Origin: Candidatus Rhodoblastus alkanivorans
GTDB lineage: Bacteria > Pseudomonadota > Alphaproteobacteria > Rhizobiales > Beijerinckiaceae
NCBI RefSeq assembly: GCF_022760755.1
Contig: NZ_JAIVFP010000001.1
Location: 2,026,001 to 2,090,000, forward strand
Direction: 5' to 3'
Length of the DNA stretch: 64,000 bases
In this document: in pieces, positions 10 through 17,160 of the stretch
How positions within the stretch are numbered: the stretch's first letter is position 1
Layout of the letters: every line of letters starts with the position of its first letter
Position numbers and translations under genes: made by a program
The notes under the pieces: generated by a model
The model's database searches: none
What the model was told of the DNA's origin: nothing
What the model saw: the letters and a program-made list of their open reading frames with translations, nothing else

Positions 10-585
10 GTGTGGGCGCAAATCATCAGCGTTCTCGTGATGGACGCCCGCGAAGCGGAAAGCCGTGAGGCCGCGCCGACGGCTGTCGTCGTCGACAGCC
101 AATCTGTCAAGACGACGGAAGCCGGCGGCCCCCGTGGTTTCGATGCGGGCAAGAAGGTCAAGGGGCGCAAGCGCCATCTCGCCGTCGACACGATCGGTCT
201 GCCCATCGAATGCCAGATCACGACCGCCGACGTGCAGGACCGCGACGCTCTCGCGCCGTTGCTGAAGGCCGTGCATCGCAAGAGCCCGTGGGTGAAAATG
301 TCCTTCGTCGACGGGGGTTATCAGGGTGATGAAGCCAAGCGCGCAGCCTTCGAGGCGAGCCGCATTTCCATCACCGTCGTCAAGCGAACCGATAAAGAGG
401 TGAAAGGATTTACGGTGCTGCCGAAACGCTGGGTCGTCGAAAGGACGCTCGGTTGGATCAATCGCGCGCGCCGTCTGTCAAAAGACTTCGAGGCGACCAT
501 CGAATCCGCCCTCGCGTGGCTGCAATTGGCCCTGGCTTTCCTTCTCATGCGAAGGCTGGCGAGGGCAAAAGCCAGTCAGAATTGA
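10..585 (+). CDS. IS5-family transposase, C-terminal part (left end cut by window)
   Basis: This is the catalytic half of an IS5-type (IS427/IS1031-like) DDE transposase, the kind often encoded in two overlapping frames. The visible DDE signature is VVDSQSVKTTE near residue 29 (first Asp), FVDGGYQGDE near residue 99 (second Asp) and RWVVERTLGWINRARRLSKDFE near residue 143 (Glu). The usual N-terminal half would lie left of base 1, so this may be the second reading frame of an intact element or a fragment. The protein ends normally at a TGA. A copy of the MITE-like repeat begins about 30 bases downstream. Start codon is not certain. Confidence 0.85.
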   Translation: MWAQIISVLVMDAREAESREAAPTAVVVDSQSVKTTEAGGPRGFDAGKKVKGRKRHLAVDTIGLPIECQITTADVQDRDALAPLLKAVHRKSPWVKMSFVDGGYQGDEAKRAAFEASRISITVVKRTDKEVKGFTVLPKRWVVERTLGWINRARRLSKDFEATIESALAWLQLALAFLLMRRLARAKASQN

Positions 586-616: not shown

Positions 617-719
617 GTTACAGTGACATGATATGAATTGCACAATTAGCCTGAATGGAAATCATATCATGTGGCCGCAACCAAAGTAATTTAGAGTTTT
701 CATATCATCCCACCGTAAC
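617..719. repeat. MITE-like repeat, copy 1 (about 103 bp, terminal inverted repeats)
   Basis: The left end GTTACAGTGACATGATATGA is mirrored at the right end, where the reverse complement reads GTTACGGTGGGATGATATGA. The interior (GCACAATTAGCCTGAA ... GTGGCCGCAACCAAAGTAAT) recurs at 5469-5564 and, diverged, at 10503-10603 and 16989-17104. No protein is encoded. The size, TIRs and dispersed copies fit a non-autonomous miniature transposable element. The partner transposase is not identified. Confidence 0.8.
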
Positions 720-3216: not shown

Positions 3217-3948
3217 ATGGATCAGAATTTTTGGATAGCGTTCGCCGCCAGCCTGATCGCCGGCGGGGTAACGACGAGCGGAATCTTTGCCATTCGCCGC
3301 TTCGGAGGATGGGCTCGTCAGAACATCACATATTTCGTCTGCTTTGCGGCCGGCGTGCTGATTGCGGTGTCTTTTCTGCACATTATTCCGACGTCATTCG
3401 CGATGAGCCCGCAGGCGCCGTTCTACCTGTTTGCGGGCTATCTGTTCATGCTCGTCTTCAACCGGTTTCTGACCGCCTATGTCTGCGACAAGCCGGAGAC
3501 TGCCGAGTATGCTCTCGGGCTTGTTCCTCTCATCGGGATTGGCTTTCACTCCTTTCTCGACGGCGTCGTATACTCGATCAGCTTCAGCGTCAGCATGTTT
3601 ACGGGCGCGCTCGTGGCGGTCGGGATGGTATTGCATGAGTTCCCCGAAGGCATCGTCACCTATACTTTGCTCATTCGCAGCGGATTCTCCGAGCGGCGGT
3701 CTTTTCTCCTCGCCTTTCTTGCCGCAGCGCTGACGACGCCAGTCGGCACGCTCGCCTCCTACCCCTTCATAAGCCAGATCCATCCACCACTGCTTGGCCT
3801 GCTGCTCGCGTTTTCAGCCGGCGCCCTGATCTACGTGGGCGCGACTCATCTTCTGCCGCGGGCGGAACGCGAGCCGCGCAGATTTAGTCTTGTCGCGCTT
3901 GCAGCAGGGATTCTCGTGGCTGTTGGGATCATCCTCAGCAAGGGGTAA
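3217..3948 (+). CDS. ZIP-family divalent metal permease
   Basis: This 243-residue, very hydrophobic protein has about eight predicted membrane segments. Two family signatures are present: IGFHSFLDGVVY in the fourth segment and VLHEFPEGIV in the fifth. Their His, Asp/Glu residues form the metal path in ZIP transporters such as ZupT. ZIP proteins move Zn2+, Fe2+ or Mn2+ into the cytoplasm down their gradient. The metal here cannot be told from sequence. A good ribosome binding site (AAGGTGAG) precedes the ATG. The gene stands alone between an IS66 remnant and an IS110 element, suggesting accessory cargo. Length is typical. Confidence 0.9.
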   Translation: MDQNFWIAFAASLIAGGVTTSGIFAIRRFGGWARQNITYFVCFAAGVLIAVSFLHIIPTSFAMSPQAPFYLFAGYLFMLVFNRFLTAYVCDKPETAEYALGLVPLIGIGFHSFLDGVVYSISFSVSMFTGALVAVGMVLHEFPEGIVTYTLLIRSGFSERRSFLLAFLAAALTTPVGTLASYPFISQIHPPLLGLLLAFSAGALIYVGATHLLPRAEREPRRFSLVALAAGILVAVGIILSKG

Positions 3949-4067
3949 GGCAAAACGGGCCTACAGAGGCCCTTGGTGTTACGGTGATGGGGTGGACGGC
4001 GTCCCGGAGCGGGATCGATGCGCCATGATGGTGGTCGTTGCCGCAACCATTGAACGGGGAGCCGTCC

Positions 4068-5141
4068 ATGGTGAAGTCTAACGGGAAATCCGCCGCTGTC
4101 ACGCGGGTTGGCGTCGATCTGGCGAAGAACGTCTTTCAGGTTCACGCGATCGATGCGGGTGGCGAAATCATTGTGGCGCGCAAGATTCGGCGCGGCGCCT
4201 TGCTTGATTTCTTCGCGCGCCTGCCGCCGTGCGTCGTGGCCATGGAAACCTGTTCCTCGGCGCATCATTGGGGCCGGCTGCTGATCGCGCAGGGCCATGA
4301 GGTTCGGTTGATCCCGGCGGGGCATGTCAAGCCTTATGTGCGGCGGGGCAAGAACGACGCGGCCGACGCGGCGGCGATCTGCGAGGCCTCTCAGCGCCCC
4401 GGCCAGCGTTTCGTGGCGGTGCGCACGATTGAGAACCAAGCGGCGCTGATGCGCCATCGCGCGCGCGAGCGGCTTTCCGGCCAGCGCACGGCGCTGCTCA
4501 ACGCTCTGCGCGGCCATCTGGCCGAAATCGGCGTCATCCTCCCACAAGGCGCGCAGCGCGCCTATGAGCTTAAAGCGCTTCTCGACCGGCGCGCCGACGA
4601 GAACGGCGAAATCGTCGTTCCCGATTGCGTGCGCGCCGCGCTGTTGCCGCTGGCTGCGCAAATCGACGCGCTGGACGAAGCGATCGGCGCGATCGACGAC
4701 GAACTGGCGAGCGAGGCGAAGGCGCACGCGACGGCGCGGCGCTTGATGACCATTCCCGGCGTGGGGCCGGTGATCGCCTCGGCGCTTGTCGCGACGACGC
4801 CGGATACGAGCGCCTTCGCCAACGGGCGGGAGTTCGCCGCCTTTCTCGGCCTGACGCCGCGCCAGCATTCGACGGGCGGCAAGCAGCGGCTCGGGCGCAT
4901 CACCAAAATGGGCGACCGCTACTTGCGCAAGCTCCTTGTTGTCGGCGCGACCTCGGTGCTGCGCCACGCCCAAGGCCATGACGACGGGCTGCGCAGCTGG
5001 GCCAAGGCGTTGCTGGCGCGCCGGCCGGAGAAATACGGATACAAGCTGACGGCGGTCGCGATCGCCAACAAGCTTGCGCGCATCGTGTTCGCGCTGATGA
5101 GCCATGGCGGCGTTTACGAAGGCCGTCCGGCGGCGGCGTGA
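4068..5141 (+). CDS. IS110-family DEDD transposase/recombinase
   Basis: The 357-residue protein has the IS110 N-terminal RuvC-like domain: VGVDLAKNVFQVHAID (first Asp), VAMETCSSAHHWGR (Glu) and RRGKNDAADAAAI (last Asp pair). It also has the C-terminal Transposase_20 domain with LMTIPGVGPVIASALVATTP, then AAFLGLTPRQHSTGGKQRLG and ITKMGDRYLRKLLVVGA, which carries the conserved Ser-like recombinase region. The ATG at 4068 lies behind GGGGAGC and gives the canonical start. It is intact, so the element may be mobile. Its long 3' non-coding end places it in the IS1111 group, where the guiding bridge RNA is expected in the right end. Confidence 0.92.
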   Translation: MVKSNGKSAAVTRVGVDLAKNVFQVHAIDAGGEIIVARKIRRGALLDFFARLPPCVVAMETCSSAHHWGRLLIAQGHEVRLIPAGHVKPYVRRGKNDAADAAAICEASQRPGQRFVAVRTIENQAALMRHRARERLSGQRTALLNALRGHLAEIGVILPQGAQRAYELKALLDRRADENGEIVVPDCVRAALLPLAAQIDALDEAIGAIDDELASEAKAHATARRLMTIPGVGPVIASALVATTPDTSAFANGREFAAFLGLTPRQHSTGGKQRLGRITKMGDRYLRKLLVVGATSVLRHAQGHDDGLRSWAKALLARRPEKYGYKLTAVAIANKLARIVFALMSHGGVYEGRPAAA

Positions 5142-5468
5142 GGAGGCCAACGCCGCCGAAAGCCGCTCGCTCGCTTCGGCGCTATGTAGGGCGCGCTTCG
5201 CGAGCGGCTTTCTCGCGTTCGTCGCGTTGCGACGGGAAGGAATCGAGGGTGACCACGAGGTGATGTGAAATAACGGAAAAGGCTCGGAAGCCAGATATCG
5301 TGTCGGCGCCAAGACGAGCGCGCTACGGTGATTCCGGCAAAGAGCCTGGCGGACGATCCATCAGGGCCAGCGGGAAGACACCTGCGTCAACAGGCCGGAG
5401 ACATGACCGCACCCTATAACTTCACGCCGCTTCAAGCAAACCCTTGATCAAGGGGCGCCGTCCAGACC
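5142..5468 (+). ncRNA. Candidate bridge-RNA region in the IS110 right end
   Basis: About 325 bp after the transposase stop carry no gene but show structure. A 12-bp inverted repeat (AAAGCCGCTCGC at 5160-5171, GCGAGCGGCTTT at 5201-5212) is followed by further GC-rich stems. IS1111-group elements are known to encode their bridge RNA here. The octamer TACGGTGA at 5324-5331 equals the MITE terminus in which the element sits (TTACGGTGA), as expected of a target-binding loop. The RNA itself, its ends and its pairing are inferred. Confidence 0.35.
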
Positions 5469-5564
5469 TGACATGATACGAATTGCACAATTGGCCTGAA
5501 GAGAATTCCTAACATGTGGCCGCAATCAAAGTAATTTGGAGCTTTCGTATCATGCCACTGTAAC
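5469..5564. repeat. MITE-like repeat, copy 2, split by the IS110 element
   Basis: TGACATGATACGAATTGCAC through TTTCGTATCATGCCACTGTAAC matches copy 1 closely. Its first seven bases (GTTACGG) lie at 3978-3984 on the other side of the IS110 element, so the repeat is older than the insertion. Bases 5565-5741 beyond it hold no gene that I can recognise. Confidence 0.75.
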
Positions 5565-10502: not shown

Positions 10503-10603
10503 GTTACGGCGACGTGATGCGAATTGTAAAATTAGCCGAAGGGGATTCATTTCATGTGGCTTCAGCCAAAATAATTGTTGGATTTCGTATCATGTCCCCT
10601 TAA
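10503..10603. repeat. MITE-like repeat, copy 3
   Basis: It begins GTTACGGCGACGTGATGCGA and ends TTTCGTATCATGTCCCCTTA, so the terminal inverted repeats are recognisable. The interior is diverged from copies 1 and 2 but nearly the same as copy 4. It is followed by short TAATGCC-type repeats. Confidence 0.75.
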
Positions 10604-10649
10604 TGCCCTTGATGCCCGGTAATGCCCGCGGGCCCCGGGCAATGCCAAA

Positions 10650-14024: not shown

Positions 14025-14047
14025 CGCCGTCCACCCCATCACCGTAA
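14025..14047 (-). repeat. Orphan copy of the IS110 left end
   Basis: Twenty-three bases are identical, in reverse orientation, to 3979-4001 at the left end of the IS110 element (core GGTGATGGGGTGGACGG). No transposase lies beside it. Bases 13801-14092 otherwise contain no recognisable gene, so this is probably a relic of a related IS copy. Confidence 0.6.
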
Positions 14048-16988: not shown

Positions 16989-17104
16989 GTTACGGCGACG
17001 TGGATTACCGTGACGTGATGCGAATTGTAAAATTAGCCGAAGGAGATTCATTTCATGTGGCTGCAGTCAAAATAATTTGGAGATTTCGTATCATGTCCCC
17101 GTAA
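16989..17104. repeat. MITE-like repeat, copy 4, with duplicated left tip
   Basis: It starts GTTACGGCGACGTG, then restarts after GATTACC with GTGACGTGATGCGAATTGTA and ends TTTCGTATCATGTCCCCGTA. The interior is nearly identical to copy 3. The doubled left tip suggests nested insertion or imperfect excision. Confidence 0.75.
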
Positions 17105-17160
17105 TGCCGTAATGCCGTAATGCAGGTAATGCCGTAATGCCGTAATGCCGGTAATGCCAG
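17101..17160. repeat. Short tandem array of TAATGCCG
   Basis: Seven copies of TAATGC spaced by 8 or 9 bases follow MITE copy 4. Copy 3 has a few degenerate units in the same place. From 16,572 to 17,899 there is no recognisable gene. The area holds only these repeats, a lone MITE tip (GTTACGGGGACGTGATACTA, 17275-17294), a terminator-like hairpin and a parS-like site. Confidence 0.8.

Follow-up and report, generated by a model that had tools for sequence, protein, structure and literature searches.

According to the available parts of PMC1525189, the copies of four IS110-family elements, ISPa11, ISPpu9, ISPpu10, and ISRm19, are confined to REP elements (6/6, 7/7, 7/7, and 4/4, respectively). 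The accessible portion of PMC5896051 places the Coxiella IS1111 in QMITE2, a MITE with a GTAG REP, and a further report, by its title, describes IS1111-type elements in the terminal repeats of Tn21. The excerpted text of PMC11187229 contains experiments on other IS1111 elements in which the RNA selects the target, and gives the guide order of these RNAs, with the complement of the top strand lying 5' of the match to the bottom strand; potential donor-binding nucleotides in IS1111 RNAs are reported in the accessible text of PMC11208160. In TIRtrons and TIRYT, a Y1 transposase gene lies between inverted repeats that also occur scattered on their own, and only some of these terminal inverted repeats (TIRs) have the motif GGGGWSAS (PMC3733652, in the parts available).

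The window analyzed here, a stretch of 64,000 nucleotides at positions 2026001 to 2090000 of contig C1 in a 4.35-Mb genome, contains an intact IS1111-type insertion sequence of 1,484 bp at 3985-5468 (+), delimited by comparing its junctions with intact repeats and sister copies. The element interrupts a dispersed repeat, about 101 bp long, at its tip, GTTACGG|TGACATGATACG. The left part of the tip, GTTACGG, lies at 3978-3984 (+), as seen from its sequence and the sister copies, and the remainder of the repeat occupies 5469-5564 (+; 86% identity to the intact copy). Joining 3978-3984 to TGACATGATACG from 5469 onward rebuilds the tip found intact at 617-719, as the sequence-only reading had proposed. 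The target tip reads GTTACGGTGACATGATACG, with the insertion point at GG|TGA. When the joined flanks of two copies were compared with intact repeats, zero bases had been added at the joint, and the element thus lacks a target duplication, as expected of IS1111 elements. An empty orthologous site was not found among 11 genomes, of which 2 matched the neighboring gene (the own genome and one weak match). Elsewhere in the window, profile matches mark an IS5-family transposase (10-585), a Glyco_transf_41 protein (838-2331), and a ZIP-type metal transporter (3217-3948).

The organization of the element follows that of the IS1111 group. An uninterrupted open reading frame (ORF) of 357 amino acids at 4068-5141 (+) encodes a DEDD transposase, related over its length by matches to Pfam DEDD_Tnp_IS110 and Transposase_20 (run on 4074-5138) and to NCBIfam NF033542, the model of IS110-family RNA-guided transposases (321.7 bits). 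Subterminal inverted repeats TGGACGGCGTCCC (3993-4005, +) and GGGGCGCCGTCCA (5452-5464, +) are 13 bp long with 1 mismatch, within the 11 to 13 bp of IS1111 elements; 12 bp had been noticed before. The left terminal extension TGATGGG (7 bp; 3985-3991, +) agrees with the 7-bp rule given in the available text of PMC11187229 provided that mismatched base 3992 is counted into the inverted repeat, such that the extensions are 7 bp left and 3 bp right with the mismatched terminal base placed in the repeat, and 8 and 4 bp otherwise. Downstream of the gene, as in other IS1111 elements, lies a noncoding right end that matches an RNA model (see below) and measures 327 bp (5142-5468). The earlier estimate of about 325 bp therefore held for its length, but 63 bp of it (5152-5214, unstranded) are a REP-like palindrome without a counterpart in the two sister copies. 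Sequence similar to this palindrome also occurs elsewhere in the same genome (L007), and further genomes within the genus and the family have it too.

The intact copy of the target repeat at 617-719 (+) extends from GTTACAGTGACATGATA to CATCCCACCGTAAC, and diverged copies lie at 10503-10604 (+) and 17003-17105 (+), with 77% and 80% identity, respectively, over the matched part. Across the genome, TTACRGTGA occurs at 31 sites, compared to 7 for the reversed control pattern. When these sites were classed by eye, 14 were dispersed-repeat tips, 7 were junctions, belonging to the insertion sequence, to a mini-element, or to left-end stubs, and the other 10 appeared to be single copy. The sequence-only reading had envisaged a MITE-like target that offers many landing sites; several such sites do exist, but with 14 of 31 being repeat tips by eye their number is modest, and although the target is indeed a dispersed repeat, one of the three copies of the element sits in a different one, and a link to Y1 transposases describes these repeats better than the term MITE. 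Located 3 kb upstream of the window, L118 contains a Y1 transposase gene (scoring above the cutoff of Y1_Tnp and, with NF047646, 72 bits against a cutoff of 80) whose flanking ends, TTACGGTGATGATACGAAT and ATTCGTATCATGTCACCGG, are nearly the same as those of the target repeat; the second tip of this unit is CCGGTGACATGATACGAAT, with CCGG rather than TACGG, and it has CCGGTGACA in place of TTACGGTGACA. Another end of this kind comes after an ORF (L099) that has zero library matches and that we take to be the C terminus of a RAYT. Because the L118 unit and L099 both carry such ends, the target repeats are, from sequence, best described as RAYT/TIRYT-linked. They are not GTAG REPs, as this tetranucleotide was absent between -5 and +25 in 30/30 TTACRGTGA sites checked, single-copy sites included; the tips in this genome, GGTGACAT, fit 6/8 positions of the TIRYT motif GGGGWSAS.

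An origin of the target repeats as MITEs of a DDE transposon, with no link to a Y1 enzyme, is unlikely. A candidate parent would be the IS5-type element at window 10-585, as an IS5-family transposase directly precedes the intact repeat at 617 (the only repeat whose neighbor was checked); the Y1 unit at L118, however, is bounded by TTACGGTGATGATACGAAT and ATTCGTATCATGTCACCGG, nearly identical to the ends of these repeats, though its second tip is CCGGTGACATGATACGAAT.

A genome search, in which 40 of 229 first-look candidates were scored and short fragments may be missed, recovered three full-length copies, all at TTACGG|TGACA[T/C]; the left junction [AG]TTACGG and right junction TGACA[T/C] were present in 3/3, and each copy lies in a repeat tip. 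Two of the copies are in one repeat family, and the third (L003) is in a different repeat, TGACACTTTACCAAATCCCC, with the same tip. The two sister copies (L003 and L112) are 84% identical to the window element over the gene, differ from each other at 7/1413 positions, and have in common a premature stop after codon 89. Their flanks differ and mark two different targets, and the donor segment of the RNA is altered in both. Because the stop is common to both copies and yet their flanks differ, they were probably moved in trans, on protein from elsewhere. That the copies spread instead by duplication of a repeat-plus-element segment, with the common tip tracing to a single insertion, would fit the 7/1413 differences and the common stop of the sister copies, but has very little probability given that the outer left flanks differ in all three copies and that one copy occupies the different repeat TGACACTTTACCAAATCCCC.

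The left-end pattern, searched in the same genome with up to 1 mismatch, occurs at 5 sites, namely, the three copies, a mini-element, and a stub. The mini-element (L112:2916-3019; G000:C1:3464315-3464418) spans 104 bp and pairs the left end of the insertion sequence with an inverted, left-end-like sequence on the opposite side, both of its ends being tipped TTACRGTGA; it is possibly a Y1-type repeat derived from the left end. Two stubs, at window 14025-14047 (-) and L107:662 (-), consist of a repeat tip and about 14 bp of the left end followed by unrelated DNA. A right-end-like match at G000:C1:3821828 was set aside, as its appearance is unlike that of an insertion sequence end.

Across 11 genomes of the genus, the left-end pattern was found at 20 sites, comprising 5 in the own genome, 6 in G006, 1 in G003, 2 in G007, and 6 judged unrelated by eye. 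The right-end pattern with up to 2 mismatches gave many listed matches in 11/11 genomes, and only exact ones, in G006 and G007, were used. TTACGGT precedes the left end in G002, in G003, and at one G007 site, while another G007 left flank reads TTGCGGT; one G007 right end is followed by GGACATGATACGAAATCCCC. The last 650 bases of L202, also from G007, show a copy of the insertion sequence in a TTACGGT tip, with its gene cut off by another TTACGGTGACATGATACGATTCCCC repeat. In the sister species G006, CCGGT (5) or CTGGT (1) stands before each of six left ends GATGGGGTGGACGGCG, and GGACAGGAWCG follows five right ends; the interior of the element was not found in G006, where it is known from its ends alone. 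The sequence GGGGACAGGAACG..TTGCG is dispersed in G006 (22 sites with ≤2 mismatches, versus 0 for the control), the sequence before GGGG varies among these sites, and most of the listed repeats, GGGGACAG, fit GGGGWSAS. Because the G006 flanks belong to this dispersed repeat, the related elements there, judged by sequence, occupy the corresponding site, GG|GGACAGG, in a different repeat.

These flanks also bear on the placement of the left boundary. Were TTACGG the left end of the element itself rather than target, the element would have no tip preference, and the recurrence of TTACGGTGATGGGGTGGACGG as a unit in the 104-bp mini-element and the two left-end stubs would be explained. Dispersed repeats have TTACGG without any insertion sequence, however, the six G006 left ends carry the same GATGGGGTGGACGGCG behind CCGGT (5) or CTGGT (1), and the flanks of the related element L019 differ, all of which makes this boundary highly improbable.

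A noncoding RNA is predicted within the right end at 5275-5424 (+) by a covariance model, R2, built from the right ends of 27 relatives with the window left out (59.7 bits; E value of 8.1e-12 in 247 kb). Relatives had been fetched with the transposase, and 80 of 502 confirmed were kept; R2 found matches in 38/40 sources searched, the exceptions being L058 and L080. RNAalifold on a first alignment (A1), in which the window group was misaligned, returned 5 pairs only; a second alignment (A2), of 27 right ends and built without that group, is the basis of the structure counts. In A2, 86.4% of cells were paired, compared to at most 41% when partners were slid, and double-change cells numbered 87 versus 28.4 in shuffles (0/500 as high); the count of further pair types was no higher than in shuffles (188/500). 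Double changes support helices 1 and 2, the two target-loop stems, and helix 6, the hairpin at the tip of the donor domain. Helix 3, inside the target loop, is weaker (61% of cells paired), helix 4, which closes the donor loop, is 79% paired with zero double changes, and helix 5, the GGCC helix, is nearly invariant. In the window RNA, the outer stem of the target loop is predicted by the fold at 5281-5285 (+), with its partner at 5342-5346, and the homologous helix covaries in relatives. Folded alone, the window region was no more stable than shuffles (z = -0.69), with the two guides partly paired to each other, and an Rfam search gave zero matches at E values up to 1.

The target loop contains two guides, in the IS1111 order with the complement of the top strand 5' of the match to the bottom strand. 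Target guide 1, ATATCGTGTCG (5295-5305, +), complements TGACAYGATA, with two G.U pairs to TGACATGATA; target guide 2, CTACGGTGAT (5323-5332, +), corresponds to the TACGG of the left target together with the core, as judged by sequence and the covariation test below. The octamer TACGGTGA at 5324-5331, which the sequence-only reading had picked out as matching the target, is weak evidence when taken alone within 327 bp; it becomes convincing because the guides covary with the flanks over relatives. In 35 representatives, selected solely on the final 6 letters of guide 2 and having 35 distinct guide-2 sequences, guide 1 scored 7.93 with its own flanks versus 4.51 with those of others, and guide 2 scored 5.59 versus 2.65; in each case, 0/20,000 permutations, which ignore relatedness, were as good. 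Both guides also fit their own flanks better than others' flanks over all 55 usable elements. This sample was reached from the 80 relatives by removal of 19 with ends not found or at contig ends (61), addition of the three own copies (64), removal of 4 without the scaffold motif (60), and removal of 5 (L054, L056, L062, L074, and L082) whose ends were judged by eye to be miscalled, so that 52 relatives and the 3 own copies remained. The anchored test replaced an unanchored search without a structural anchor, in which the own target was best in only 9/64 elements, since picking the best of many local matches brings noise. In L003, the copy located in the other repeat, pairing by guide 1 spans only about 6 bases (s1 = 5.5).

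L018 and L019, whose transposases are 69% and 68% identical, display natural reprogramming by eye; the L018 target is GGACGCAATG. Guide 2 of the window was matched in 17 of 385 genomes of the class, including its own, and of the 16 matches in other genomes, 0/16 loci matched R2 at an E value of 0.01, hence by this model they are not guide RNAs. Among the 80 kept of the 502 confirmed relatives, a similar guide 2 was seen only in L018 and L082. The latter, from Caulobacterales, has a transposase 53% identical and a 5' end off the contig; its guide 2, GATACGGTGAT, and right flank, TGACACTTTACTTAA, therefore point to use of the same kind of tip in another group. Outside the guide test, the guides of L120 (genome G072) fit the flanks by eye, with right flank TGACTATGTTG and RNA CAACATAGTCG.

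The second loop matches the joined ends of the element, on the right side by covariation and on the left by inspection. The left-end donor guide, CCATCA (5358-5363, +), complements the left end TGATGG (3985-3990) by inspection alone. The right-end donor guide, AGACATGA (5399-5406, +), matches the right end plus core, and across 25 distinct RNAs the letters after GGCCG match and covary with the element's own right end (7.08 versus 4.69; 0/20,000 permutations). In the window, AGACATGA matches its own end, AGACC|TGA, at all but one position and is an exact fit to AGACA|TGA, the end sequence in both defective sister copies, whose own RNAs read AGACAGTA at the donor segment. That the transposase protein alone recognizes the tip, with the octamer a coincidence or a decayed target copy, can be set aside as a most improbable account: a match of 8 bases within 327 bp carries little weight by itself and the single-sequence fold is unremarkable, but guides and flanks change together over 35 representatives, double changes conserve the target-loop stems, and in other IS1111 elements the RNA is described as selecting the target (PMC11187229, available text).

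Together, these comparisons document the junctions, the repeat context, the conserved RNA fold, and the covariation of guides with targets and donor ends at the level of sequence, and RNA-guided targeting, proposed earlier for this element, is strongly supported on that basis. It is very probably an IS1111-type element with a bridge RNA that guides insertion at the GG|TGACAY tips of repeats. The right end would encode this bridge (seek) RNA, which has one loop for the target and a second, donor loop that holds guides for the element's own joined ends, and the DEDD transposase would use the RNA to recombine a circular form of the element with the GG|TGACAY tip of dispersed repeats, inserting in one orientation and without target duplication. 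We infer the circular intermediate, the processing of the RNA, and the recombination chemistry from relatives described in the literature. Because the tip is common to Y1-linked repeats, one guide could reach otherwise different repeats, with a wobble position that takes T and C.

More tentatively, the lineage may track the GG|KGACA end motif of Y1/TIRYT-type repeats, with one wobble-tolerant guide serving several repeats, relatives in the sister species using another family at the same motif position, the tip being disabled by insertion, and the intact copy carrying its defective sisters via the exact donor guide; this is a possibility that we would not yet favor. The elements compared here form a natural series of joint changes in the target guides, the donor guide, and the flanks, so that targets may be readable from sequence, and such a series could be useful in choosing new programmable recombinases. 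It also suggests that the ends of a different class of mobile element can serve a guide-directed element as a renewable target.

IS110/IS1111 elements are already known to insert into REPs, into a MITE, and into Tn21 TIRs, and the RNA mechanism is likewise known; the present element and its tip are a new example. Targeting of a TTACGG|TGACA tip by an IS1111 element was not among the literature matches listed, a search for which subscription journals and preprints were mostly outside the scope. Like ISPa11, ISPpu9, ISPpu10, and ISRm19, as far as the available parts of PMC1525189 describe them, the element has its copies in a dispersed repeat, palindromic in those cases; the hosts differ, the tips here lack GTAG, and different repeats have one tip. 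As with the Coxiella IS1111, an IS1111-type element occupies a MITE-like repeat, but the target and repeat type differ, and, going by the accessible portion of PMC5896051, guide analysis was done only here. The elements in Tn21 terminal repeats, judging by the title of that report, likewise aim at the tip of another mobile element, there the terminal repeat of a transposon and here small Y1-linked repeats. TIRtrons and TIRYT resemble the present repeats in having a Y1 gene flanked by repeats that are also dispersed alone, and the G006 repeat GGGGACAG fits GGGGWSAS, whereas the tips of the window genome, GGTGACAT, match 6/8 positions, and kinship with TIRYT is putative (PMC3733652, in the parts available). 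Finally, the locus shares with the seekRNA and bridge RNA systems, as set out in the accessible texts of PMC11187229 and PMC11208160, a noncoding region downstream of the gene, the guide order, and natural reprogramming; it differs from them in clade and target, and here the donor guide covaries with the element's end over 25 distinct RNAs.
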